A stretch of 57,329 nt of DNA. It comes from Candidatus Krumholzibacteriia bacterium. Lineage in GTDB: Bacteria > Krumholzibacteriota > Krumholzibacteriia > JAJRXK01. Shown in pieces: positions 37,931 to 57,329 of the stretch. Each line of letters starts with the position of its first letter. Position 1 is the first letter of the stretch. Where the stretch lies: the NCBI GenBank assembly GCA_029932915.1, contig JAOZPE010000018.1, forward strand, positions 1 through 57,329, in the 5' to 3' direction. The position numbers were made by a program, and so were the translations under genes. Below the pieces are notes generated by a model that made no database searches, was not told where the DNA came from, and saw only the letters and a list, made by a program, of their open reading frames with translations.

Positions 37931-40900
37931 ATGCGCTGGTACACTCCCTTCCTGCTTCTCGTCGCGATCGGTCTCGTGTCGATCCCCGCCCAGGCCGACT
38001 GGGACGCGGGGCAACCCTACAAGTGGTTGCAGAATCCCGACACGACTCCGACCGGCGTCGACGTCTACGTCTCCTATCTGGACGAAGTCCAGATGGGTGA
38101 CGACTTCCTGTGCACCACCACCGGACCGATCACGGACATCCATCTGTGGGCTTCGTGGTATCACGATCAGCTCCCCAATGGCGATCCGTCGGCGGTGACC
38201 TTCTATCTGAGCATCCATGCCGACATTCCCGCCGAGCAGAGCGGCCTGGGGTACAGCATTCCCGGCGAGCTGCTCTGGCAGTACACCTTCCAGCCCGGCA
38301 CCTTCTCGGTCCGTCCCTGGGAGGAGGGGATCGACGAGGGATGGATGAACCCCATCGACGATTCCTACGAATTCCCCGGCGACCACGTGTGCTGGCAGTA
38401 CAACTTCTTCATTCCCCGCGAGGAGGCCTTCATCCAGCAGGGAAATGAAGCCGAGCCCATGGTGTACTGGCTGGTGGTGAACGTGGTGCCCGACGATCCC
38501 CAGGCCTGGTTCGGGTGGAAGAGTTCGATCGACCACTGGAACGACGATGCGGCCTGGATCTCCACTGGCCCCGGAGGCGACGGGCAGTGGCACGACCTGC
38601 GGTATCCCCCGCCGCATGAGCTGGGTGGCCAGTCGATCGATCTGGCCTTCGTCATCACCACCGAACCCACCGACCAGTCCGACTTCGGTGACGCCCCCGA
38701 TCCCGCCTATCCCACCCTGCGGGCCAGCAACGGCGCCGAGCACATCATCGTGCCCGGTCTGTATCTGGGCAGCGGGGTCGATGGCGATCCCGACGGCCAG
38801 CCCGATGCCACCGCCACCGGTGACGACAACGACGGCAACGACGACGAGGACGGTGTCACCTTCCTCACCTCCCCCCTGGTCCCGGGCCAGCCGGGCAATG
38901 TCCGGGTCGATGACACCGGCGGAGGCCTGCTGGACGCCTGGATCGACTTCGATGGCAACCAGAGCTGGATGGACGGCGGTGATCGGATCGCCGGCAGCAC
39001 GCCGCTCAGCGTGGGCGCCAATGTCCTGGGCTTCTACGTGCCACCCTGGTCCCTTCCCGGATCGACGGTCTCCCGCTTCCGCCTGAGCAGCCAGGGAGGC
39101 CTGCCTCCCATCGGCTCTGCACCGGACGGTGAGGTCGAGGATCATCTGGTGCAGATCGAGGAGGGTCCGCCCTACAAGTGGCTCCAGGAACCCGATCTGA
39201 GGATGACCGGCATCGACGTGAACGCCAGCGATCCCTTCGTGCTCGCCGACGACTTCCTTTGCTCCGAGACCGGGTGGATCGACCAGATCCAGATATTCGG
39301 CTCGTGGCTGAGCGACGTGTTGCCCGAGGGCGATCCTCTCTCCGTCGACTTCTACCTGAGCATCCACGAGGACATCCCCGCCGGCGTCGATGACATTCCC
39401 TACAGCCGGCCGGGAGAGCTGGTGTGGGAGTGGCAGTTCCCCGCCGGCGTCTTCCAGGCCTTCCCCATCGATCTGGCCGGGGAGATCGAAGGCTGGATGG
39501 ATCCGCCCGACGGGTACGTCTTCCCGGGGGATCACCAGTGCTGGGTCTACATCTTCGATCTTCCCCGGGAGGGCCGCTTCCTGCAGTGGGGCGATCCCGA
39601 TGCGCCGAAGGTGTACTGGCTCGACCTGAAGGCCTATCCCCACGATGCGCAGGCCCGCTTCGGTTGGAAGACCTCGCTCGGCCACTGGAACGACGATGCG
39701 GTGTGGGGTGAAGGCCCCGAACCGTACCCGGGTCCGTGGAACGAGCTGGTCTATCCGCCCGACCACCAGTTCCAGGGCGACTCGATCGACCTGGCCTTCC
39801 TGCTGCGGGGCAGCGCGGAGACGCCGCTGATCGACTTCGGTGATGCGCCCGATCCGAGCTATCCCACCCTGCTCGCCAATGACGGGGCGCGGCACCTCGT
39901 GGGTTCACTCTACCTGGGAGCGGGCATCGACGCCGAGCCCAACGGGCAGCCCACCGCGGCCGCCGACGGCGATGACAACGATGGCAACGACGACGAGGAT
40001 GGCATCGTCTTCACCACGCCGTGGGTGCAGGGACAGACGGCGACCATCCAGGTGACCTCCAGCGGCAGCGGTCTGCTCAACGCCTGGGCCGATTTCAACG
40101 GCAACGGAAGTTGGGCCGACGCCGGTGAGCAGATCGCCACCGACTGGGCGGTCACCGCCGGGGTGAACACCCTGACCGTCGCCGTGCCGGCTTCGGCCGT
40201 TGCGGGTACGACGACCCTGCGCTTCCGCCTGAGCAGCCAGGCCGGGCTGTCCTTCACCGGACCGGCGAACGATGGCGAGGTCGAGGACGAGCAGGTGTTC
40301 ATCGAAGCGCCGCAGGTGTTCAAGTGGCTCCAGGAGCCCGACCTCGATGTCACCGGCATCGACGTGAACGCCAGCGATCCCTTCGTGCTCGCCGACGACT
40401 TCCCGTGCACGGCGACCGGATGGATCGACCGGATCCACGTGTGGGGTTCGTGGTTCAACGACCTGCTGCCCGTCGGCGATCCCATGCTGGTCAGCTTCCA
40501 TCTGAGCATCCACGAGGACATCCCCGCCGGGGTGGACGGGATTCCCTACAGCCATCCCGGTGAGTTGTTGTGGGAGTGGGTGGCGATGCCCGGGCAGTTC
40601 GTGGTGAACCCGATCGACCTGGTCGGGGGCGCCGAGGGCTGGATGGATCCGCCCGACGGCTATGTCTTCCCCGGCGACCAGATGTGCTGGGAGTACATCT
40701 TCGACATCCCGCCGGAGGATCGCTTCGCGCAGTTGGGGACTCCGGACTTCCCCCGGATCTATTGGCTCGACGTGAAGGCCTACCCCGAGGATCCCGAGGC
40801 GCGCTTCGGCTGGAAGACCTCCATGATCCACTGGAACGACGACGCGGTCTGGGGCCAGGGCCCCGAGCCGTACTTCGGTCCGTGGGAGGAGCTGTTCTAT

Positions 40901-41764
40901 CCGCCGCAGCACGAGTTCGCCGGCCAGTCCATCGATCTGGCCTTCGCGCTGCACAACGCCGACGAGCCGGTGCCGATGGACTTCGGTGACGCGCCCGATC
41001 CCAGCTTCGCGACGATGCTGGCCAACAACGGGGCACGACACGTGCTGGGGAGCGGGCTCTTCCTGGGCAACGGGGTCGACATGGATGTGGACGGCCAACC
41101 CGACGCGACGGCCACCGGTGACGACAACGACGGCAACGACGACGAGGACGGCGTGACCTTCCTCTCGCCGCTGGGGGTGGGTCAGACCACCTTCTTCGAC
41201 GTCGTGGCCTCCGGTCCGGGCTTCCTGAACGTGTGGATCGACTTCGATCTGGATGGCACCTGGCAGCAGGCGGCCGACCACATCATCATCGATCTCCCCC
41301 TGGTGGCCGGGCTGAATCCGCACATCGCCATTCCGACGCCGCCGACGGCGACGGCCGGACACAGCTATGCGCGCTTCCGCTTCAGCTCGTATCCGGGTCT
41401 GGGACCGGCTGGACCGGCGCGGGACGGCGAGGTCGAGGACTACGCCGTCGACATCTTCGTGCCGACCAACACCGGTGAGGTGCCTCGACAGTTGAGGCTC
41501 TACCAGAACGTGCCGAATCCCTTCAACCCGAGCACCGTCGTCAAGTACGACCTGCCCGCTCGGAGCGAGGTGCGCATCGCCGTCTACGACCTGCACGGCA
41601 GCCTCGTACGCACCCTCGTCGATGGTACGGTCGACGCGGGCCGCCGCGAGGTGCGCTGGGACGGCCGGGACGACAGTGGCCGGCCGGTGGTCAGCGGCAT
41701 CTATGTGGTGCAGCTGGAGACCGGTGCGGGTACGCAGAGCACGAAGGTGACCCTGATTCGCTAG
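37931..41764 (+). CDS. Exported triple-repeat protein (three DUF7901-like/GEVED units) with FlgD-like C-terminal domain
   Basis: This 1277-residue exported protein has a signal peptide (FLLLVAIGLVSIPAQA). Three consecutive units of ~383 residues follow. Each unit begins KWLQ, has a beta-rich ~220-residue part (ADDFLC, LSIHEDIPAG, DGYVFPGD, WFGWK, HWNDDA) and then DFGDAPDP. Each ends in a GEVED-type domain with the acidic, probably calcium-binding run D-D-N-D-G-N-D-D-E-D-G and a closing DGEVED. The last ~85 residues form the FlgD-like or sorting-type domain (NVPNPFNPST, GSLVRTLV, VRWDGRDDSGRP). A surface-attached or secreted adhesive or structural role is inferred. The upstream gap 37541-37930 shows no gene and no clear promoter. 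Start ATG 37931 has AAGGAGG (37913-37919) upstream. Confidence 0.9.
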   Translation: MRWYTPFLLLVAIGLVSIPAQADWDAGQPYKWLQNPDTTPTGVDVYVSYLDEVQMGDDFLCTTTGPITDIHLWASWYHDQLPNGDPSAVTFYLSIHADIPAEQSGLGYSIPGELLWQYTFQPGTFSVRPWEEGIDEGWMNPIDDSYEFPGDHVCWQYNFFIPREEAFIQQGNEAEPMVYWLVVNVVPDDPQAWFGWKSSIDHWNDDAAWISTGPGGDGQWHDLRYPPPHELGGQSIDLAFVITTEPTDQSDFGDAPDPAYPTLRASNGAEHIIVPGLYLGSGVDGDPDGQPDATATGDDNDGNDDEDGVTFLTSPLVPGQPGNVRVDDTGGGLLDAWIDFDGNQSWMDGGDRIAGSTPLSVGANVLGFYVPPWSLPGSTVSRFRLSSQGGLPPIGSAPDGEVEDHLVQIEEGPPYKWLQEPDLRMTGIDVNASDPFVLADDFLCSETGWIDQIQIFGSWLSDVLPEGDPLSVDFYLSIHEDIPAGVDDIPYSRPGELVWEWQFPAGVFQAFPIDLAGEIEGWMDPPDGYVFPGDHQCWVYIFDLPREGRFLQWGDPDAPKVYWLDLKAYPHDAQARFGWKTSLGHWNDDAVWGEGPEPYPGPWNELVYPPDHQFQGDSIDLAFLLRGSAETPLIDFGDAPDPSYPTLLANDGARHLVGSLYLGAGIDAEPNGQPTAAADGDDNDGNDDEDGIVFTTPWVQGQTATIQVTSSGSGLLNAWADFNGNGSWADAGEQIATDWAVTAGVNTLTVAVPASAVAGTTTLRFRLSSQAGLSFTGPANDGEVEDEQVFIEAPQVFKWLQEPDLDVTGIDVNASDPFVLADDFPCTATGWIDRIHVWGSWFNDLLPVGDPMLVSFHLSIHEDIPAGVDGIPYSHPGELLWEWVAMPGQFVVNPIDLVGGAEGWMDPPDGYVFPGDQMCWEYIFDIPPEDRFAQLGTPDFPRIYWLDVKAYPEDPEARFGWKTSMIHWNDDAVWGQGPEPYFGPWEELFYPPQHEFAGQSIDLAFALHNADEPVPMDFGDAPDPSFATMLANNGARHVLGSGLFLGNGVDMDVDGQPDATATGDDNDGNDDEDGVTFLSPLGVGQTTFFDVVASGPGFLNVWIDFDLDGTWQQAADHIIIDLPLVAGLNPHIAIPTPPTATAGHSYARFRFSSYPGLGPAGPARDGEVEDYAVDIFVPTNTGEVPRQLRLYQNVPNPFNPSTVVKYDLPARSEVRIAVYDLHGSLVRTLVDGTVDAGRREVRWDGRDDSGRPVVSGIYVVQLETGAGTQSTKVTLIR
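38021..41468 (+). repeat. Three tandem ~1.15-kb coding repeats
   Basis: The repeat units start with AAGTGG at 38021, 39175 and 40322, giving periods of 1154 and 1147 bases. Units 2 and 3 are closest. They share long nucleotide stretches, for example the one coding DVNASDPFVLADDF, and both encode LSIHEDIPAGVD. Unit 1 has diverged more. This points to duplication with later homogenisation between units 2 and 3. Confidence 0.9.
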
Positions 41765-43100: not shown

Positions 43101-44630
43101 TCAGCTCCTGCCCCGCAGGAATTCCAGGGCCTGTTTCGGACTGACCTTCCGGCTCGCCGGGCCCACCCGCACATAGAACTCCTCGTCCTCGCCGATGATG
43201 AGGAAGGCCGGCTCGTCGGCCGGCTCGACGTCGACCACCAGGATCTTCTCTCCTTCGATCGCCTTCAGGCCGAAGGAGAGGAAGCGGGCGAACTCGAGGC
43301 CGATGTTCTGCTTCACGCAGTTGTTGAAGTGCAGCAGGTACTTGTCCTCGTTGCGGAAGCCGTCGCGGCCGATGCCCACGATCTCTCCATCGTCGGCGAC
43401 GCCGATCAGGAGGGTGCCGCCCTCGGTGTTGAGGAAGGCCACCACGGTCTTCAGCCAGGCCTTCTCGATCTCGCGGCCCGGCTTGTTGGTCTTCAGGTTC
43501 CACCGCAGGGTCGACTTGAACTCGAGCGCATCGCTCTCGCCTCGATCGATCAGCGCGCGCAGCTCCTCTTCGCCGAGGTCCTGGTGATCGTGCCGGCGGC
43601 GCAGGCTGCGCAGGCGCCGGCGGTAACCGAGGTAGACCGCCGCCACCATGGCAGCGCCAAGGAGCAGGGTCGCCGCGAGGGCGAAGAGGTAGGGACGCGA
43701 CAGGGCATGCAGTTGCTCCTGCAGATCACGGCGGGGAAGCAGCAGGACCATCACCCGCGAGCCGTCCATCGTCTTCAGGGGTTCGGCCCGCAGGCGCCAG
43801 GCCTCACGGCTCCGGCGGAAGGGGACGCTGCGGTCGAAGGGCCGGCCGGCGTCGTTCCACACCAGGAGGGCCTGGGCGAGCAGTCTCCTCTGCTCGTCGG
43901 GCGAATGCACCAGCCGCGACAGGGTCACCGAGTGGATCAGCCCGTCCCCGCCGGCGGCCAGCCACGAGACCATCCCCTCATCGTTGACGATGGCCACCGT
44001 GGAATGGGGGGTGACGGCCAGATCCCGGTGCAACCTCTCGGCCGCCTCGTGGGCGAAGACCAGCGCCGCGTAGAAGGGACGGCTACCGGTGGGATCGTCC
44101 CAACTGAGCGCCGCCACCAGCTCGGGCGACTCGATCCAGAACACCTCCTTGGGGCGCCGCTCGTCGCGCACGCCGCGGTACCAGGGTTCCTTCTCCAGGA
44201 CGCTGTCGGCCAGGGCGATGGCCGTCTCGCCCCAGGCGCCCTCCTCGCGCCGAAGGCGCCAGGCGAAGTGGGGAGGCTGGGCCACGATGAGTCTGGACAG
44301 CCTCTCGCTGCGTTGGATCAGGGGAAGCAGTTGGCGGGTGAGTTCGTCGGGCCGGGAGAGGTCGAGGACCCCGCTGGTCGTCCAGTCGCCGATGGCCGAC
44401 AGGAAGCCATAGGTGGGCTGGAGGAACTCCTCGAGCGAGCGGCGGCACTGGCGGCTGCGGCTGTCGAGCAGTTCCTCGAAGATGCGGTCCTGCGCGCGCT
44501 GCTCGAAGTGATGGACGGTCGCGGCCACGGCGGCGGTCACCGCCAGGGCCAGCGCGATCAGGCCGGCCAGGCGGTGGCGCAGGGGACGGCGGGGAAGCCC
44601 CGGGGCAAGCGCTCGATCTTCAGTGGACAC
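43101..44630 (-). CDS. Membrane sensor with periplasmic domain and cytoplasmic AlbA_2 (Schlafen-type) domain
   Basis: This 509-residue protein has a first helix at ~21-40. A periplasmic domain of ~270 residues follows, with a Cache-like pattern (FEELLDSRSRQCRRSLEEFL, YRGVRDERRPKEVFWIESPE, VTPHSTVAIVNDEGMVSW). The second helix is at ~314-334 (YLFALAATLLLGAAMVAAVY), followed by an Arg-rich juxtamembrane part. The cytoplasmic end, residues ~355-490, is an AlbA_2/Schlafen-type domain: ESDALEFKSTLRWN, IEKAWLKTVVAFLNTEGG, TLLIGVADDGEIVGI and a final YVRVG. That domain is usually found in cytoplasmic DNA- or RNA-linked regulators, so its use as the output of a membrane sensor is unusual. The GTG start overlaps the end of the deacetylase gene by 11 bases. 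Confidence 0.85.
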   Translation of the reverse strand: MSTEDRALAPGLPRRPLRHRLAGLIALALAVTAAVAATVHHFEQRAQDRIFEELLDSRSRQCRRSLEEFLQPTYGFLSAIGDWTTSGVLDLSRPDELTRQLLPLIQRSERLSRLIVAQPPHFAWRLRREEGAWGETAIALADSVLEKEPWYRGVRDERRPKEVFWIESPELVAALSWDDPTGSRPFYAALVFAHEAAERLHRDLAVTPHSTVAIVNDEGMVSWLAAGGDGLIHSVTLSRLVHSPDEQRRLLAQALLVWNDAGRPFDRSVPFRRSREAWRLRAEPLKTMDGSRVMVLLLPRRDLQEQLHALSRPYLFALAATLLLGAAMVAAVYLGYRRRLRSLRRRHDHQDLGEEELRALIDRGESDALEFKSTLRWNLKTNKPGREIEKAWLKTVVAFLNTEGGTLLIGVADDGEIVGIGRDGFRNEDKYLLHFNNCVKQNIGLEFARFLSFGLKAIEGEKILVVDVEPADEPAFLIIGEDEEFYVRVGPASRKVSPKQALEFLRGRS

Positions 44631-48969: not shown

Positions 48970-50658
48970 CTACTTCAACAGGACCATGCGGCGGCTGATG
49001 ACCTCGTCGCCCGCGTGCAGGCGATAGTGGTACACGCCGGAGGCCACCGTGTCTCCCTGGTCGTCGCGTCCATTCCATTGGACCGCATGGGGACCGGCGT
49101 CCATGGTCTCCTGCACCAGGTGCCGGACGAGGCGTCCGGACTGATCGAAGATCTCCAGGCTCACCTCACCCTTGCGCGCCAGGCGGAAGCGGATGGTCGT
49201 CGAGGGGTTGAAGGGGTTGGGTTGGTTCGCGTACAGGCTTGTCCGCGCGGCGGGGATGTCCGGTGACGCCGTCACCCTCTCGTCGAACCAACCGATGTCC
49301 TCGAAGTGATAGCGCGTCAGGTCGACGTCGTCGTGGAGATCGCTGTTGATGGCGGGCTCCATGAGCAGGTTCGGCGTGGCACTGACGTCCCAGTGCGAGA
49401 CCGACGATCCGGGCTGCAGGGGGTTGGGTGCGTAGAGCAGCACCTGTCCGGTGACCGAGCCCGTCCCGGCCAGGGAATTCGGGTCGGTCTGCATGGCCAC
49501 GTGCACCGTCTCTCCCAGCGCCAACTGGTTCTTGATCGCCGTTCCGTCGTCCTGGGTGATCATGAGCGAGGGAATGGTGATCGTCGCGTCGTCGCCGGCC
49601 ATGTTGATGATGCCCGCGACATTGTTGGCGACGAGCACGCCGATGGCGCCGGCGTTCTGTGCGTTCTTCACCTTGGTGGTGAAGGCACAGGTGCCGCGGT
49701 CGATGAGCGCGATCTTGCCGGACACCTCCGCTCCGTTGATCAGAGCCTCGCAGCCGTCACTGGTGGTGCCCGTGCCGTCGTCCACCAGAACGACATCGCC
49801 GGTGACCGGATGGTTCTTCACGCTCGGTCCGAATTCGGCCGTCCCCACATCGGTGAGGGTTCCTGCGATGGCCCCAGGAGTGTCGATCACCACGATCGCC
49901 GGGCTGTCGAGGATGCTCTTGGCGGCGAAGTTCACCGCGAAGCCGTCCCACACCAGATGGTTGGTGTTGACCGCCGAGTTCGCGCGCTCGGCCGCGGTCA
50001 TGTCCGTCCATTCCTTGCCCTGTGTCTCGTCGTAGATGAAGTGGCTGAAGAGATCGGGATGGCTGTAGAACCACGCCCCGGTCTCGTGATCGACGAATTC
50101 GGAGAAGCCCAGGCCGTGGCCCAGCTCGTGGATGACCACTGTCAACAGCTCGACGTCATTGCCTTCGTTGCCGTCGAAGCCGTAGTACCAGTTCATGCCC
50201 GCCAGGCAGTTGTCGTTGTTGTCCACCGAACTGTTGAAGCGGGCGACGATGTCGTTGCCGCCGGGATCGAGATCCTCATCGGCCTGCTTGTTGGCCAGGG
50301 CGGCGTGATACCAGGTACCCGCATACTCGGCTCCGGTGAAGTCACGGTTCAGGGTGAGGGGGCCGGCACTGCCCAGCACCGCGCCGTTGGCGTTGCAGTC
50401 GAGGGCGTCGAAGGTGGCCTCGACCCGGATGGTGACGTTCGAGGGAAGGATGCTTCCCCAGATATCGGCTGCGTGCTGGAAGACGTTGAGCCTCTGCTGG
50501 CCCAGGGTCGTGCCGCTGTTGCCGCCCACCGGGGAGACGGGGGTGGGATCGTTGAAGCCCTCACCGGCCCCGTCGTTGTTGATGATGATGATGTTCGAGG
50601 CATGGGCGGAGACGCTCACGAGAAGAGCGATCACGAGGATGGGTAACAGGCGACGCAT
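48970..50658 (-). CDS. Exported zinc metalloprotease with PA domain and FlgD-like C-terminal domain
   Basis: This 562-residue secreted protein has a signal peptide (LLPILVIALLVSVSAHA). A metallopeptidase domain carries VVIHELGHGLGF (His177, Glu178, His181), the HExxH zinc motif followed by a metzincin-like G-x-G-F. A protease-associated (PA) domain lies at ~255-390 (DGCEALINGAEVSGKIALIDRGTC, VKNAQNAGAIGVLVANN). A last ~85-residue FlgD-like or sorting-type domain follows (ANQPNPFNPST, SGRLVRHLV, VQWNGRDDQGDTVASGVY). The third zinc ligand is not certain. The layout resembles exported PA-domain proteases of FCB-type bacteria. The gene begins one base after the stop of the small upstream exported protein, so the two are coupled. 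A hairpin at 48918-48949 follows. Confidence 0.9.
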   Translation of the reverse strand: MRRLLPILVIALLVSVSAHASNIIIINNDGAGEGFNDPTPVSPVGGNSGTTLGQQRLNVFQHAADIWGSILPSNVTIRVEATFDALDCNANGAVLGSAGPLTLNRDFTGAEYAGTWYHAALANKQADEDLDPGGNDIVARFNSSVDNNDNCLAGMNWYYGFDGNEGNDVELLTVVIHELGHGLGFSEFVDHETGAWFYSHPDLFSHFIYDETQGKEWTDMTAAERANSAVNTNHLVWDGFAVNFAAKSILDSPAIVVIDTPGAIAGTLTDVGTAEFGPSVKNHPVTGDVVLVDDGTGTTSDGCEALINGAEVSGKIALIDRGTCAFTTKVKNAQNAGAIGVLVANNVAGIINMAGDDATITIPSLMITQDDGTAIKNQLALGETVHVAMQTDPNSLAGTGSVTGQVLLYAPNPLQPGSSVSHWDVSATPNLLMEPAINSDLHDDVDLTRYHFEDIGWFDERVTASPDIPAARTSLYANQPNPFNPSTTIRFRLARKGEVSLEIFDQSGRLVRHLVQETMDAGPHAVQWNGRDDQGDTVASGVYHYRLHAGDEVISRRMVLLK

Positions 50659-50659
50659 C

Positions 50660-51121
50660 TCACTTCACCTCCGCATTGCGAGGAAGGGGGCTCGTCGAGG
50701 TGTCGATCGACTTCCCCTCCATGAAGCGGCTGGCGATCTGCGCGTCGTCGGTGCAGATGACATGGAGACGGCCGTCATCGCCCTTGTGCACGACGGTGGC
50801 ATTCTGGAAACGTCCCTGCAGGTCCACCATGACGCTCCCGTCGGGAAGGGTTCGGGGTGTCAATCCCTCGGTGGAACGGCTGAGGCTCGGCATCAGGGCC
50901 TTGGATGGCACGGGCGGCGTCGACAGCGGCTGCAGGGTGCCGGTCTCCGGGTCGATCTGGATTCGCATGGCGGACATCCCCGCCGTGTCCGATGCGTCGG
51001 GATCGAGCGCCGCGGACCGGGGTGGGTGAGGCAAGGTGAGGATCACGAGGGCCAGTGCAGCCAGGGGCAGCCAGATGGCCAGGAGCCGGTTTCTGGGCCG
51101 CACGCGTGTCATGGGCATCAT
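50660..51121 (-). CDS. Small exported protein coupled to the metalloprotease
   Basis: This ~153-residue protein has an N-terminal membrane or signal segment (LLAIWLPLAALALVILTLP) and an otherwise unstructured, Ser/Thr/Pro-rich middle with IQIDPETGTLQPLS. A C-terminal part contains DGSVMVDLQGRFQNATVV and HVICTDDAQIASRFMEG. I do not recognise the family. It ends one base before the metalloprotease start, so an accessory or inhibitory role for the protease is plausible, as for many exported protease partners. Three in-frame ATGs (51121, 51118, 51112) follow AAGGAAGG; the middle or last has better spacing. The 396-base gap upstream (51122-51517) holds no gene; a lone TACAAT at 51321-51326 lacks a -35. 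Confidence 0.7.
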   Translation of the reverse strand: MMPMTRVRPRNRLLAIWLPLAALALVILTLPHPPRSAALDPDASDTAGMSAMRIQIDPETGTLQPLSTPPVPSKALMPSLSRSTEGLTPRTLPDGSVMVDLQGRFQNATVVHKGDDGRLHVICTDDAQIASRFMEGKSIDTSTSPLPRNAEVK

Positions 51122-51517: not shown

Positions 51518-53026
51518 GTGCGTTCCCGATGGTTTGTGCTGTCTCTGGGGGCAGTGGCTGTTTTTCTCTCGTTGACCGGGTGCTCGAAGGAGCGGACGCC
51601 CTGGGACGGGATCGCAGAGATCCCGGCCCACGTCGACCACTCCACCTTCTTCGAGGGCGCGAAATTCACCGACGGGCCCTCGGTGACGAAGGCCTGCATG
51701 GAGTGTCACGAGAAGGAGGCCCGCGACTTCCTGAAGACCACCCACTGGACCTGGCAGGGAGACAGCGTCCGCCTTCCCGATGGAACGATCGAACACATCG
51801 GCAAGGCGAACCTGATCAACAATTTCTGCATCGGGATCAAGAGCAACGAGAAGCACTGCACCACCTGCCACGCCGGCTACGGGTGGAGGGACGACAGCTT
51901 CGATTTCAACGACCCGACCCGCATCGACTGCCTCATCTGTCACGACAACACCGGCACCTACCAGAAGGCCGAGGACGGCGCGGGTGAGGTCGATCCCGAC
52001 GTCGACCTGCTCGCGGTGGCCAAGGGCGTGGGCGCGCCCACCCGCCAGAACTGCGGCTTCTGCCACTTCCGCGGGGGCGGCGGCGACGCGGTCAAGCACG
52101 GCGACCTCGATGGGAGCATGTACTTCCCTACCGAGCGCATCGACGTGCACATGGGCCGCTACGACTTCCAGTGCTACTACTGCCACAGGACCGTCGACCA
52201 CGACATCAAGGGCCGTTCGATGACCCTCAACGTCTCCGACGAGAACCGCATCGCGTGCACCGATTGCCACGATTCCCGTCCGCACAAGTTGCAGCGGCTC
52301 AACGAGCACACCGACGCGGTGGCCTGCGAGACCTGCCACATCCCGGAGATGGCCATCGACGAGGCCACGAAGATGTCGTGGGACTGGTCGCAGGCCGGAC
52401 AGGACCTGCCGATCAAGGACCACCACGTGTATGCGAAGACCAAGGGGCGCTTCGTCTTCAAGAAGCACGTGATTCCCGAGTACTACTGGTACAACGGGCA
52501 TTCGGGCCGCTACCTCATGGGCGAGAAGATCAACCCCGACGAGGTTCTCAAGCTCGACTGGCCGCTCGGTGGCTACCACGACGGCAGGGCCAAGATCTGG
52601 CCCTTCAAGGTGCATCGCGGCAAGCAGCCCTACGACACGGTGAACAAGATCGTCCTCGTCCCGAACACCGTGGGACCGCAGGGCTACTGGACGATCTTCG
52701 ACTGGGACACCGCCCTGCGCATCGGCAGCGAGCACAACCACCTTCCCTACAGCGGACACTACGGCTGGATCTCCACGGAGATGTACTGGCCGCTGGCGCA
52801 CATGGTCCAGCCCAAGGAGAAGGCGGTGCAGTGTGACGAATGCCATTCCCCCGGAGGCCGGATGGACTGGAAGGCCCTGGGCTACCGCGGCGACCCCGCG
52901 TTCGAGGGCGGGCGCCGGGAGAATGGAGCGATCAGCATGAACGTGAAGGAGAACCCGGACGCCTCGGTGATTCCGTCCGGTGAACCGGCCGACGCCTTCG
53001 AGGATCGGCAGGAGGGAGGAAAGTGA
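51518..53026 (+). CDS. Octaheme c-type cytochrome lipoprotein, tetrathionate reductase (OTR) family
   Basis: This 502-residue periplasmic lipoprotein has a signal and lipobox (FLSLTGCSKE, lipid-modified Cys22). Eight CxxCH haem-binding motifs are present: CMECH, CTTCH, CLICH, CGFCH, CYYCH, CTDCH, CETCH and CDECH (first cysteines at 60, 114, 138, 179, 219, 247, 270 and 439). Size, haem number and spacing fit the octaheme tetrathionate reductase family, which reduces tetrathionate, and also nitrite or hydroxylamine in vitro. The start is a GTG at 51518 with GGGAGG seven bases upstream (51505-51510); an upstream ATG at 51452 would place the lipobox too far in. Its stop overlaps the next start. 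Confidence 0.87.
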   Translation: MRSRWFVLSLGAVAVFLSLTGCSKERTPWDGIAEIPAHVDHSTFFEGAKFTDGPSVTKACMECHEKEARDFLKTTHWTWQGDSVRLPDGTIEHIGKANLINNFCIGIKSNEKHCTTCHAGYGWRDDSFDFNDPTRIDCLICHDNTGTYQKAEDGAGEVDPDVDLLAVAKGVGAPTRQNCGFCHFRGGGGDAVKHGDLDGSMYFPTERIDVHMGRYDFQCYYCHRTVDHDIKGRSMTLNVSDENRIACTDCHDSRPHKLQRLNEHTDAVACETCHIPEMAIDEATKMSWDWSQAGQDLPIKDHHVYAKTKGRFVFKKHVIPEYYWYNGHSGRYLMGEKINPDEVLKLDWPLGGYHDGRAKIWPFKVHRGKQPYDTVNKIVLVPNTVGPQGYWTIFDWDTALRIGSEHNHLPYSGHYGWISTEMYWPLAHMVQPKEKAVQCDECHSPGGRMDWKALGYRGDPAFEGGRRENGAISMNVKENPDASVIPSGEPADAFEDRQEGGK

Positions 53027-54900
53027 TGGCACGACGAGGCGCATTTTCCGCCCCTGGCGCGATCATCCTGCTGACCCTCCTCCTGCTGCTGGCGGCCATG
53101 CCGACTGCGGCCGCTGCGCTGCATCCCGACGTCGAGTTGCTCGACGCCGATGGAAACAACGTCCTGGACAGCGGTGGACCGGTCTCGCCCATGCAGACCT
53201 GCAACGGCTGTCATGACACCGATTTCATCGCCGCCCACAGCGACCACATCCAGGCCCTCGATCGGCCCCAGCACGCGCGTCTGGCCCCCGGTCAGCCGTC
53301 CTATGCCGCCGATCCCGCCGGCTACGTCCGCTGGCTGAAGGCCTACGGGACGATGCACGTCGGTGGCGGTGACGCGGCCAAGGCCGGCTTGGATCTGGAT
53401 TGCTTCCTTTGCCACACCGTCAGGCCCGACGTGGAGGCACGGAACAGGGAGATCACCGATGGCCGTTTCCGCTGGGCCGCGACCGCCACACTCTCGGGCC
53501 TCGGGGTGGTCGAGAAGACCGGCGGCAGCTGGCAGTGGAAGCGGGCGAGCTTCAACGAGGATGCGGCACTCAGCGCCGACTTCCTGGGCATCGGGGCTCC
53601 GACCTCCACCGCCTGCGGCGCCTGCCACGGTACGGTCGATTTCAGCAGGGCGCCGCTGACGAGTTTCCCCGACCCCTCCAACTGGAACACCTATCTTCGC
53701 GGCGAGATCTACTCGCCCCAGAGGCTGGCCGACTCGGGCATGAACATCCAGGGCAAGGATCACCTGGGCCGGCCCTTCGACGTGCACGCCGAGCGCATGG
53801 TGAGCTGCTCGAACTGCCACCACGCGCAGAACGATCCCGCCTCGTTCCGCAGCGCCCAGGAGCGGCGCCTCGGCCGTCTGCACACCGACGTGCGCCGGCC
53901 GAGCATCGGCGACTTCCTGGAGACGCCCGACCACCGGCTGGCCCGCGGCTGGACGAGTTTCGGTGCCGCGGACGATCCCTTCGCGGGCAGCATGCGCCGC
54001 TGCGAGGACTGTCACGAGGTGGAGAGCAGCCACACCTGGCTGCCCTATCCGAAGCTGCACATGGCGGCCATGGACTGCGAGAGCTGCCACATTCCGCGGG
54101 TCACCGCACCGGCGCTGCAGGAGGCCGACTGGACGGTGTTGACGCCGGAGCGGCAGCCCCGCCGCGTCTTCCGCGGTGTCGATGGCCCGGCCGATTCGCC
54201 GGCCACCCTGATCACTCCGTGGCGCCCCCTGCTGCTCGAGCGCTTCGAGGGCGGTCGGGGGGAGCGCATCTCGCCCTTCTCCCTGGTGACGAGCTGGCGA
54301 TGGGTGAGTGGTCCGAAGGGAGAGGATGTCTCTCAGGAGGAGCTCAACCAGGCCTGGTTCGAGGGCGATGACTACGCGCCATCCATCGTCGCTGCCCTCG
54401 ATGCGAACCAGGATCACCAGCTCAGCCCGGATGAACTCGTGCTGGACACGCCGACCAAGGTCGACGTCGTCCGCAAGCGCCTGGAGGGACTGGGGCTGAA
54501 GGATCTGCGGATCGTCGGCGAGATGGAACCCTATGGTCTGCACCACGGGGTGGCACCGGGCAGCTACGCCCAGAGTGACTGCCAGGCCTGTCACGGACGC
54601 GGCTCGCAGTTCCGCCGGGCCACGCAGGTGGCGTCGGTCCTGCCCGGCGGGGTCGAGCCCGCCCTGGCCGCGGGCAGCGGCTCACACATGGACGGCCACT
54701 TCTGGAAGGACCAGGACGGGCGCTACTGGTACCAGGGCGAGATCCAGCAGTCGTCGGTCTACGTCCTCGGCGCCTCGTACGATCCCATCATCGATTTCCT
54801 GGGCAAGTGGTTGATCGTCCTGACCCTGCTGGTCGTGGCCTTCCACGCCCTTCTCCGCTTCCTGGGCGCGCGGCGCAACCAGCGGGAGGTGCAGTCGTGA
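53026..54900 (+). CDS. Membrane-anchored heptaheme c-type cytochrome
   Basis: This 624-residue protein has a signal peptide (IILLTLLLLLAAMPTAAA). Seven CxxCH motifs are present: CNGCH, CFLCH, CGACH, CSNCH, CEDCH, CESCH and CQACH. One C-terminal membrane helix (LGKWLIVLTLLVVAFHALLRFLG) ends in a short basic tail. An opening LLDADGNNVLDSGGPVS precedes the first haem, and a second calcium-loop-like run, DANQDHQLSPDE (EF-hand spacing), lies before the last haem. It is probably the electron-transfer partner between the cytochrome b and the octaheme protein. The ATG at 53026 overlaps the OTR stop, with GGAGGGAGGA just upstream; a GTG three bases earlier is less likely. The cytochrome b gene follows with a GTGA overlap. 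Confidence 0.88.
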   Translation: MARRGAFSAPGAIILLTLLLLLAAMPTAAAALHPDVELLDADGNNVLDSGGPVSPMQTCNGCHDTDFIAAHSDHIQALDRPQHARLAPGQPSYAADPAGYVRWLKAYGTMHVGGGDAAKAGLDLDCFLCHTVRPDVEARNREITDGRFRWAATATLSGLGVVEKTGGSWQWKRASFNEDAALSADFLGIGAPTSTACGACHGTVDFSRAPLTSFPDPSNWNTYLRGEIYSPQRLADSGMNIQGKDHLGRPFDVHAERMVSCSNCHHAQNDPASFRSAQERRLGRLHTDVRRPSIGDFLETPDHRLARGWTSFGAADDPFAGSMRRCEDCHEVESSHTWLPYPKLHMAAMDCESCHIPRVTAPALQEADWTVLTPERQPRRVFRGVDGPADSPATLITPWRPLLLERFEGGRGERISPFSLVTSWRWVSGPKGEDVSQEELNQAWFEGDDYAPSIVAALDANQDHQLSPDELVLDTPTKVDVVRKRLEGLGLKDLRIVGEMEPYGLHHGVAPGSYAQSDCQACHGRGSQFRRATQVASVLPGGVEPALAAGSGSHMDGHFWKDQDGRYWYQGEIQQSSVYVLGASYDPIIDFLGKWLIVLTLLVVAFHALLRFLGARRNQREVQS

Positions 54901-55571
54901 TCCGGCGAATCTACCTGTACAGCACCTATGAGAGGGTCTGGCACTGGAGCCAGGCCCTGGGCATCCTCCTGTTGCTGCTCAGCGGCTACGAGCTGCACCG
55001 GCCCGACCAGCTGCACATCTTCGGCATGCAGGGCGCGGCCTGGTTGCACAACCTGCTGGGGCTGTTGCTCATCATCAATGCCATCTTCTCCCTGTTCTAC
55101 CACGTGGCCACCGGGGAGATCCGGCAGTACCTGCGTCAGCCCGACGACGTGTTCACTTTGGCCATCCAGCAGGCCCGCTACTACGCCTACGGAATCTTCC
55201 GGGGCGATCCCCATCCCTTCGACCGCTCGCCCCAGCGCAAGCTGAATCCCATCCAGCAAGCCACCTACGTGGTCATCCTCAACGTGCTGCTGCCGTTGCA
55301 GGTGATCACCGGCTCGATGATCTGGGGCGCGGCACGGTATCCCGATTCGGTCGGTCGGCTCTGGAGTCTGCGGCTGGTGTCCCTCATCCACACCGCCGGG
55401 GCCTGGGCCTTCGCCCTCTTCGTCATCGTCCATGTCTACATGACCACCACCGGGCATCATCCCTTCTCCAACATCAAGGCGATGATCACCGGTTACGAGG
55501 AGGACGAGAGGCCGGAGCCCACGATCCAGCCTCAGGCGCCGCCCGAAGCGAGCCAGCAGGAGGTGCGTTGA
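54897..55571 (+). CDS. Membrane diheme cytochrome b (thiosulfate/formate reductase gamma-like)
   Basis: This 224-residue membrane protein of the cytochrome b561/PhsC/FdnI-like family has about four helices. Histidines fit haem b ligation: VWHWSQALGI, AAWLHNLLG, LFYHVATG, LIHTAGAWAF and VIVHVYMTTTGH. Such subunits take electrons from the quinone pool and pass them to periplasmic cytochromes or to a molybdoenzyme. Here the immediate neighbours are multihaem cytochromes, so it is the likely quinol oxidase part of the chain. The GTG at 54897 overlaps the upstream stop, and GGGAGG (54884-54889) is seven bases before it. The cytoplasmic tail is acidic and rich in Pro and Gln. Confidence 0.9.
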   Translation: MIRRIYLYSTYERVWHWSQALGILLLLLSGYELHRPDQLHIFGMQGAAWLHNLLGLLLIINAIFSLFYHVATGEIRQYLRQPDDVFTLAIQQARYYAYGIFRGDPHPFDRSPQRKLNPIQQATYVVILNVLLPLQVITGSMIWGAARYPDSVGRLWSLRLVSLIHTAGAWAFALFVIVHVYMTTTGHHPFSNIKAMITGYEEDERPEPTIQPQAPPEASQQEVR

Positions 55572-55572
55572 G

Positions 55573-56091
55573 ATGCGCTCGGAACCCCGTCCCTATCTGC
55601 ATCCCTATGTGGGAGGCGTATTGCTGGGACTCGTGCTCTTCTTCTCCTTCGTGCTCACCGGTCACGGCCTCGGGGCCTCCGGTGGTCTCGGACGGATGAT
55701 CATCGCGGTCCAGAAGCTCTTCGACCCGCAGCACGTCAACCTCAACCCCTACCTGGCCCTGGCCGGCGGCGGGGACAAGAACCCCCTGGACCACTGGATC
55801 ATCTGGGAACTGCTGGGAATGCTCCTGGGCGGATTCGTTTCGGGATTCATCGGCGGGCGCCTGAAGGTCGAGACCCGCAAGGGGCCGCGCATCACCGTCC
55901 ACCAGCGCTGGCTCTTCGCGGTGATCGGCGGATTCTTCATGGGCTACGGCGCGCGTCTGGCGCGCGGCTGCACCTCCGGTCAAGGGCTCTCGGGAAGCGC
56001 GGTGCTGTCGGCGGGTTCCTGGGGCTTTCTGATCATGGTGTTCCTCGGTGGCTATCTTCTGGCCCGCCCTCTGCGGCGCCTGTGGACCTAG
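55573..56091 (+). CDS. YeeE/YedE-family sulfur transporter, first half
   Basis: This 172-residue membrane protein has about five helices and the family motif GYGARLARGCTSGQGLSG, whose Cys is part of the thiosulfate-conducting path in the TsuA/YeeE type. A gap of one base separates it from the cytochrome b gene, and AGGAGGT (55558-55564) lies eight bases before the ATG. In many bacteria YeeE/YedE is one chain of ~350 residues; here it is split, with the second half in the next gene. It probably imports thiosulfate or another sulfur compound, or exports a product of the reductase. The link to the cytochromes is by operon position only. Confidence 0.87.
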   Translation: MRSEPRPYLHPYVGGVLLGLVLFFSFVLTGHGLGASGGLGRMIIAVQKLFDPQHVNLNPYLALAGGGDKNPLDHWIIWELLGMLLGGFVSGFIGGRLKVETRKGPRITVHQRWLFAVIGGFFMGYGARLARGCTSGQGLSGSAVLSAGSWGFLIMVFLGGYLLARPLRRLWT

Positions 56092-56103
56092 GAGGGTTGA
56101 GTC

Positions 56104-57329
56104 ATGGCACCCGCTGATCTCGTATCGTCCATCGGCCCGGTCGGGGCGATCCTCGTCCAGATCCTCATCGGCTTCGGCTTCGGTTTCATGCTGGAGATCT
56201 CCGGTTTCGGCGACAGCCGCAAGCTGGCCGGCCAGTTCTACCTGCGGGACATGACCGTCCTGAAGGTCATGTTCGGCGCCATCGTGGTCACCGCCGTGCT
56301 GATGGCCGCGAGCATCGTCTTCGGCTGGATCGACTTCTCCCGCGTCTACGTCGACCACACCTACTGGGGCTCGGGCCTGCTCGGCGGGCTCCTGCTCGGC
56401 TTCGGCTTCGCCATCGGCGGATTCTGCCCGGGGACGGCCTGGACCTCCTCGGCCACCTTCAAGGTGGACGCCTGGTTCTTCATCGGCGGCGTGCTGCTGG
56501 GCATCTGGGCCTTCGGCGAGACCGTGCCGCAGTTCTGGAGCTTCTACAACACCGGCGGCGAGCGGCTGACCATCCCCGACTGGCTCGGCTGGTCCTTCAC
56601 CGGCACGGTCCTGGTGATCGTGGTGGTGGCGATCCCCGCGTTCTGGCTGGGAGAGAAGGCCGAGCGGAAGTACGGGAAGGGCTGGGTCGATCTCAGCCGC
56701 GAACACAGCGGTCCGAAGCTCGTGGCCGCCGCGGCGCTGACCGTCTTCGTGCTGGCCCTGTTCGTCCACGGCGATCCCACCCTGGACGAGCTGGTGGCGC
56801 GCCACGCGCCAGAGCAGGACGCGCGGATCGAGGCGCGTCAGATCCAGGCCGATCCGGGCGAGGTGCTCGGACTCATGTACAACAAGCAGATCGCCGTGGT
56901 GTTGCTCGACTGCCGCGACGAGGCCGAGTACAACCTCTTCCACCTGCTCGGCGCCCGTCATATCGACGAGAGCGATCTCACCGCCGATTGGGTGAAGCAG
57001 CTAAATCCCGACGCGGTGAAGATCATCATGTCCGACGACGAGGAGCGCGCCGAGTGGATGTGGCGCCGCCTCGACGTGTTGGGGGTCACCAACCTCTACA
57101 TCCTCGCCGGCGGGGTGAACGGGTGGATCGCCACCTATTGCCCGCAGGTGTGTGGTGAAGAGGGAATCGAGACCGCCAAGTACGAGCCCAACGCGGATGA
57201 GACGAAGGTGCACTTCCCCATGGCCCTGGGCGATCGCTACGAGCTCGCCCGCCCCGAAAAGGAGAAGGTGGCTCCTCGCGAGTTCACGCCGGTGGTGAAG
57301 ATCCAGAAGGCCACGCGCGATCTCGGCGG
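56104..57329 (+). CDS. YeeE/YedE sulfur transporter, second half, fused to a rhodanese-like domain (3' end outside window)
   Basis: At least 408 residues are visible and the frame is open at the window edge. The first ~230 residues are membrane helices with the second YeeE motif GGFCPGTAWTSSATF, the counterpart of the CTSGQG motif in the previous protein. A soluble rhodanese-like domain follows from ~260: VVLLDCRDEAEYNLFHLLGA and LYILAGGVNGWI. The loop that normally holds the catalytic cysteine reads IIMSDDEERAE, with Ser310 at that place, so the domain is probably unable to form a persulfide there. The tail after ~340 is charged. GGAGGG precedes the ATG by eight bases. It is the last visible gene of the sulfur cluster. 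Confidence 0.88.
   Translation, partial: MAPADLVSSIGPVGAILVQILIGFGFGFMLEISGFGDSRKLAGQFYLRDMTVLKVMFGAIVVTAVLMAASIVFGWIDFSRVYVDHTYWGSGLLGGLLLGFGFAIGGFCPGTAWTSSATFKVDAWFFIGGVLLGIWAFGETVPQFWSFYNTGGERLTIPDWLGWSFTGTVLVIVVVAIPAFWLGEKAERKYGKGWVDLSREHSGPKLVAAAALTVFVLALFVHGDPTLDELVARHAPEQDARIEARQIQADPGEVLGLMYNKQIAVVLLDCRDEAEYNLFHLLGARHIDESDLTADWVKQLNPDAVKIIMSDDEERAEWMWRRLDVLGVTNLYILAGGVNGWIATYCPQVCGEEGIETAKYEPNADETKVHFPMALGDRYELARPEKEKVAPREFTPVVKIQKATRDLG

Follow-up and report, generated by a model that had tools for sequence, protein, structure and literature searches.

The function of the octaheme c-type cytochrome OTR (octaheme tetrathionate reductase) has been described as cryptic ever since its structure appeared in 2004, and the SoxY carrier protein has a GGCGG arm. 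According to work cited in PMC11024163, the OTR of Shewanella oneidensis reduces nitrite and hydroxylamine in vitro. A seven-haem relative of OTR, MmcA (TIGR04314), is encoded in the Methanosarcina Rnf operon and conducts electrons in methanogens (PMC11024163), and relatives of the PmpAB transporter import zero-valent sulfur (PMC11582611). Here, we describe a locus at the end of contig JAOZPE010000018.1 from a Candidatus Krumholzibacteriia bacterium, in which OTR is the first of five adjacent genes; the others encode a heptaheme cytochrome, a cytochrome b, and the two halves of a YeeE/YedE transporter, the second of which has a rhodanese-like tail. The whole stretch analysed, which is the entire contig of 57,329 nt, is called the window; the neighbourhood 3′ of position 57329 lies outside the data. 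Among open-licence papers, we found no published account of this gene set. Judged by gene order and co-occurrence, the five genes make up one conserved unit, and we lean toward the view that they encode one envelope redox module that reduces a sulfur species.

A scan for the heptaheme protein across 84,980 species genomes gave 27 named loci, most of them from metagenome-assembled genomes (MAGs), in at least seven phyla (Chloroflexota, Latescibacterota, KSB1, Calditrichota, Myxococcota, Planctomycetota, and Pseudomonadota). The order OTR, heptaheme, cytochrome b, and two transporter genes is kept as far as the contigs reach. The module is also present in three class relatives of the source genome and in a cultured species, Vibrio hangzhouensis. 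When an even sample of 396 Chloroflexota-class genomes was searched, OTR was found in 82, the heptaheme gene in 76, and the transporter-rhodanese gene in 69; all 69 of the latter also have OTR (Fisher p 2e-64) and the heptaheme gene. The heptaheme gene directly follows OTR in 72 of the 76. Seven heptaheme genomes are without the last gene, several of which look cut by a contig end, and OTR adjoins the heptaheme gene in six of them. The sequence-only reading of this DNA had already taken the five genes for a unit, and the shared order in 27 loci and the 69/69 co-occurrence bear it out. One genome, G345, has the module split between two contigs (C37, C124), with the transporter-rhodanese gene just before OTR on one and the heptaheme gene on the other.

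The frames in the window are as compact as had been read from the sequence, with overlaps or gaps of at most 12 bases:

51518..53026, + strand: octaheme c-type cytochrome of the OTR family, predicted lipoprotein (8 CXXCH, LTGC lipobox)
53023..54900, + strand: c-type cytochrome with seven haems (7 CXXCH), a signal peptide, and a C-terminal helix as membrane anchor
54897..55571, + strand: b-type cytochrome, proposed quinol dehydrogenase (PF01292)
55573..56091, + strand: YeeE/YedE C-terminal half, PmpA-like (PF04143; Cys in RGCTSG)
56104..57329, incomplete, + strand: YeeE/YedE N-terminal half, PmpB-like, with an extra transmembrane helix and a rhodanese-like domain (PF04143, PF00581)

A GTGA overlap marks both the OTR/heptaheme and the heptaheme/cytochrome b junctions; 1 base separates cytochrome b from the YeeE C-terminal half, and 12 bases separate the two transporter genes. 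We place the cytochrome b start at 54897, a longer frame from 54807 being over-extended. The cluster had been expected to continue beyond the window, which is not what we find: the contig ends there, cutting the last gene at ...RDLG(G), just short of the GGCG tail of its relatives. Since the relatives' loci show no recurrent gene 3′ of the transporter-rhodanese gene, probably only a few codons of the last gene are missing. No continuation contig was found via shared ends, and no hydrogenase-, Rnf-, or molybdenum-type partners were seen adjoining the module.

The octaheme protein is an OTR, as the sequence-only reading had proposed: it scores 557 bits against TIGR04315 (curated cut-off, 375) and matches the S. 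oneidensis OTR, 1SP3, at E 2e-152. Membership of the HAO type was rejected, as no HAO profile was among the profile matches. That reading had named two ways in which it might fail, an HAO-type octaheme protein and OTR neighbours that never include the heptaheme and YeeE genes; neither outcome was obtained. Two residues at the presumptive active site are invariant in 27 rows of the alignment. K193 (in VKHGD), aligned with K153 of 1SP3, corresponds to the Lys ligand of the catalytic haem, and C104 (in NNFC) occupies the active-site thiol position. In the OTR phylogeny, all 27 module OTRs fall on one side of a single branch (100/100 support; 100% of bootstrap trees).

Other OTRs lack these neighbours. 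The source genome itself has a second, lone copy (G000 contig C12; L004:8653-10047, + strand), closer to the Shewanella OTR and lacking both the heptaheme and the transporter genes, and module-less OTRs are also found elsewhere in its class. A membrane-anchored OTR with a cytochrome b makes up another type without the module. Given the lone copies in the source genome and its class, OTR chemistry does not require the module partners, and the suggestion that such a partner set would explain how OTR works in vivo is not supported as a general one.

The two transporter genes both carry PF04143. The RGCTSG Cys of the C-terminal half matches TsuA Cys293, and the PmpB-like half has its Cys in GGFCPGT; both halves are present with one Cys each at a functional position, as in PmpAB-type transporters. 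A second split YeeE/YedE pair with PF04143 is found in the source genome (G000 contig C5:67776-68830, - strand). The rhodanese-like tail had been recognized from the sequence, and the PF00581 domain is indeed there; any catalytic function suggested by the name falls away, as the active-site Cys is absent in all 24 rows, with a loop that typically reads MSNDE. The domain is catalytically dead and makes better sense as the scaffold for an arm tipped by Cys or selenocysteine (Sec). Complete copies in the named loci end GGCG, GGCGG, or GGCA in 21 of 23 cases. In the remaining two (L020, L021), the codon for the tail Cys itself is replaced by an in-frame TGA, followed by Gly and then a stop. With the wider sample included, the distinct complete tails comprise 45 with Cys and 5 with UGA, accounting for 50/50.

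It seems probable that this tail is periplasmic, as argued from loop charges and from one relative. In a structure model, six transmembrane helices precede the rhodanese domain, and the basic loops are 1-2 and 5-6, which would place the tail outside the cytoplasm. In G003, from the same family as the source genome, a gene of its own encodes the rhodanese, which begins with a signal-like helix, MRAPWKFLAAAALIGTTMAMTLVG, and has the C-terminus SGGCG. The rhodanese fold is supported by the structure model. A Foldseek search with the transporter-rhodanese model matched rhodanese domains only, which leaves the transporter part unsettled.

The in-frame UGA codons bear on the role of these thiols. 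The tail Cys is replaced by UGA in five Chloroflexota genomes, two from the named loci and three added by the wider sample. In L104, L105, and L107, UGA also occurs at the transporter Cys (GGF/Y[UGA]PGT), and two anchored OTRs, L137 and L139 (G293, G083), have UGA at the active-site NNFC (NNFU), followed by a hairpin resembling a selenocysteine insertion sequence (SECIS). In L137, a cytochrome b follows the anchored UGA-OTR. A further anchored OTR, in G382:C257, contains a TGA and is a possible third case. Hairpins were scored as SECIS-like when they had 6 or more stem pairs and a 3-4-nt loop starting with G, 19-20 nt downstream of the codon. Such hairpins follow 10/10 UGA sites, compared to 0/175 homologous Cys sites and a random background of 0.34%; their loops read G(G/U), 19-20 nt past the UGA, and they fall within published bacterial SECIS limits (PMC13188914). 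Tail hairpins sit just beyond the stop codon, whereas such elements usually lie inside the gene. When the SECIS regions were folded against shuffles, the z-scores were weak (-0.85 and -0.94); the comparison with homologous Cys sites is the informative test. Of the five UGA-tail genomes, four have a tRNA-Sec; none was found in the fifth, G081, which is an incomplete MAG containing fragments of SelB.

A plain two-residue truncation at the tail TGA was rejected, since a Gly codon and then a stop follow in 5/5, as does the hairpin in 5/5, and since the second TGA would destroy the transporter in three genomes. Four apparent tail UGAs (L126, L026, L032, and L034) and an OTR-pattern UGA in L026 were set aside as chance matches in the wrong frame. 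With UGA at a conserved Cys and a bacterial SECIS downstream, the five relatives are predicted selenoproteins. OTR and YeeE (motif GUxSG) appear among the selenoprotein families reviewed in PMC13188914; the tail Sec and the GGFUPGT site were not found there. The Cys-to-Sec exchanges suggest that three specific thiols are likely reactive, one of them beside the catalytic haem.

Sec in several parts of the system might be taken to mean that the module handles selenium or another metalloid oxyanion, such as selenite, and not sulfur. YeeE/YedE relatives do move selenium in some organisms (PMC11582611), and an ArsR-family regulator lies directly upstream of OTR in 14 loci, mostly in Chloroflexota (e.g., L033:6042-6377), although not in the window. 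We regard this as very improbable: Cys is what most copies have, among them those of the window and its close relatives, and the use of Sec tracks the general Sec machinery and not selenium respiration.

The heptaheme protein is a degenerate OTR, retaining the OTR fold with seven haems, and we propose that it serves as an electron wire. Its structure model (predicted local distance difference test [pLDDT], 80) has a single significant PDB match, 1SP3 (E 2.9e-9). By hhalign, its profile matches those of the module OTRs (E 2.3e-13) and the anchored OTRs (E 1.3e-26), the latter alignment running through a common C-terminal membrane anchor. Its last five haems correspond to OTR haems 4-8, and one N-terminal site, among OTR haems 1-3, is absent. 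By motif likeness (DCFLCH to DCLICH), the lost haem may be haem 2, the catalytic one. No Lys is invariant, and the catalytic Lys is absent. Against the MmcA equivalog, TIGR04314, the protein scores 55 bits, below the cut-off of 250.

That the heptaheme protein and cytochrome b belong together, as the sequence-only reading had it, follows from their fusion into one protein in 22/27 loci. The cytochrome b matches PF01292, with six His invariant in 27 rows; among equivalogs it comes nearest to PhsC, the cytochrome b of thiosulfate reductase, at 132 bits, below the cut-off of 204. The only locus of the 27 without a cytochrome b match is L044, in which the heptaheme protein is unfused and genes for an NrfB-like cytochrome, NrfC, and NrfD lie just downstream (L044:5560-7771). 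The Nrf set appears to stand in for the partner on the quinol side.

The presence of Nrf-type genes close to L044 and L028, along with the in vitro nitrite and hydroxylamine reduction by S. oneidensis OTR cited in PMC11024163, could also be read as a sign of nitrogen chemistry, in which the octaheme protein would reduce nitrite or hydroxylamine and the transporter-rhodanese gene would serve thiol repair or supply sulfur to the enzyme. We find this improbable, given that the transporter gene never occurs without OTR and heptaheme in the 396 genomes and that Cys-to-Sec exchange at three thiol sites of one system fits sulfur or thiol chemistry better.

Returning to the reduction of sulfur, we propose that the cytochrome b would oxidise menaquinol and pass electrons to the heptaheme protein and on to the octaheme protein. 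There, the Lys-ligated haem and the neighbouring Cys would reduce a periplasmic sulfur substrate. Sulfane, polysulfide, or polythionate is a candidate, probably as an adduct presented or received on the Cys/Sec arm, and the resulting sulfur could enter the cytoplasm by way of the PmpAB channel, in which Sec may likewise take the place of Cys. The route from quinol to octaheme, which the sequence-only reading had drawn and which remains the natural one, appears to be the firmer half of this mechanism, and the covalent carrier role of the arm the weaker half. In its full form, the proposal would be of a new respiratory sulfur relay: a periplasmic Cys/Sec arm fused to the importer holds the substrate covalently, quinol-fed cytochromes of the octaheme fold, one catalytic and one a wire, reduce it, and Sec is usable at the arm, the importer, and the enzyme thiol of anchored OTRs. 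This form we put forward tentatively, as the less secure extension of the module.

Several points weigh against us. The tail Cys is not visible in the window copy, since the contig ends first. SoxY homology was detected neither with Pfam nor among the listed fold matches, the GGCG tail being all that is common to both. The placement of the tail is based on counting positive charges in the loops (positive-inside rule) and on a model with a pLDDT of 78, and lone OTRs do without these partners. We infer the substrate, the direction of electron flow, and the physical contacts, as all of our functional statements draw on sequence, co-occurrence, and models. Finally, the genes just upstream of the module in L033, for an FAD oxidoreductase and DsrC-like and DsrE2-like proteins (L033:2980-5143), would also suit an oxidative role.

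Were the module to run in reverse, the octaheme protein would oxidise arm-bound sulfide or sulfane sulfur, electrons would pass via the heptaheme protein and cytochrome b to the quinone pool, and the importer would feed cytoplasmic sulfur oxidation. Besides the L033 neighbours, this would agree with the action of SoxT-type YeeE proteins and SoxYZ in oxidative sulfur import (PMC11582611) and with otr adjoining soxYZ in lucinid symbionts (PMC11237559). It sits less well with a cytochrome b nearest to the thiosulfate reductase type and with the NrfBCD set that adjoins the sole copy without cytochrome b. We consider the reverse arrangement unlikely and favour the reductive direction.

Of the genes around the module, those for a PA-domain protein with a FlgD-like tail and for a small protein (window 48970-51121 and L012:2073-4586) adjoin it in two families of the class. 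Farther away in the window are genes for a large DUF7901/GEVED protein with a FlgD-like C-terminal domain (37931-41764) and for a membrane protein bearing a Schlafen AlbA_2 domain (43101-44630, - strand).

The module supplies candidate working partners for a protein long studied alone. With an OTR clade that has fixed partners, the source of electrons and the route of the product can be put to the test, as can a candidate way of handling the substrate, and genetics should be possible, since V. hangzhouensis is cultured and carries the module.

How, then, does the module compare with known systems? With SoxY, it would share a Gly-rich, flexible C-terminal Cys tail, probably periplasmic here; it differs in having no match to the SoxY fold or profile, in carrying the arm on a transporter-fused rhodanese domain, and in that the Cys can be Sec. 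Like PmpAB/SoxT (PMC11582611), the transporter consists of two half-proteins, each bearing a single Cys that corresponds to TsuA Cys91 or Cys293, whereas the PmpB half of the module adds a transmembrane helix, the dead rhodanese domain, and the GGCG/GGUG tail. As in Phs/Psr, the thiosulfate or polysulfide reductases with a PhsC-type cytochrome b, the cytochrome b would be expected to take electrons from quinol for sulfur reduction in the periplasm; here, however, there is no molybdenum subunit, and one multihaem cytochrome would catalyse while a second would act as the wire. MmcA, too, is a relative of OTR that has seven haems and lacks the catalytic Lys, and it is a membrane-linked electron conduit, as is proposed here for the module heptaheme protein, but the latter is bacterial, has its own C-terminal helix, is fused or adjacent to cytochrome b and not associated with Rnf, and scores below the family cut-off. 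The OTR of S. oneidensis (SO_4144, 1SP3) has in common with the window octaheme protein the eight CXXCH motifs, the Lys ligand motif, and NNFC; the window copy is set apart from it, and from lone OTRs, as a predicted lipoprotein with fixed partners in a 100/100 clade of its own.
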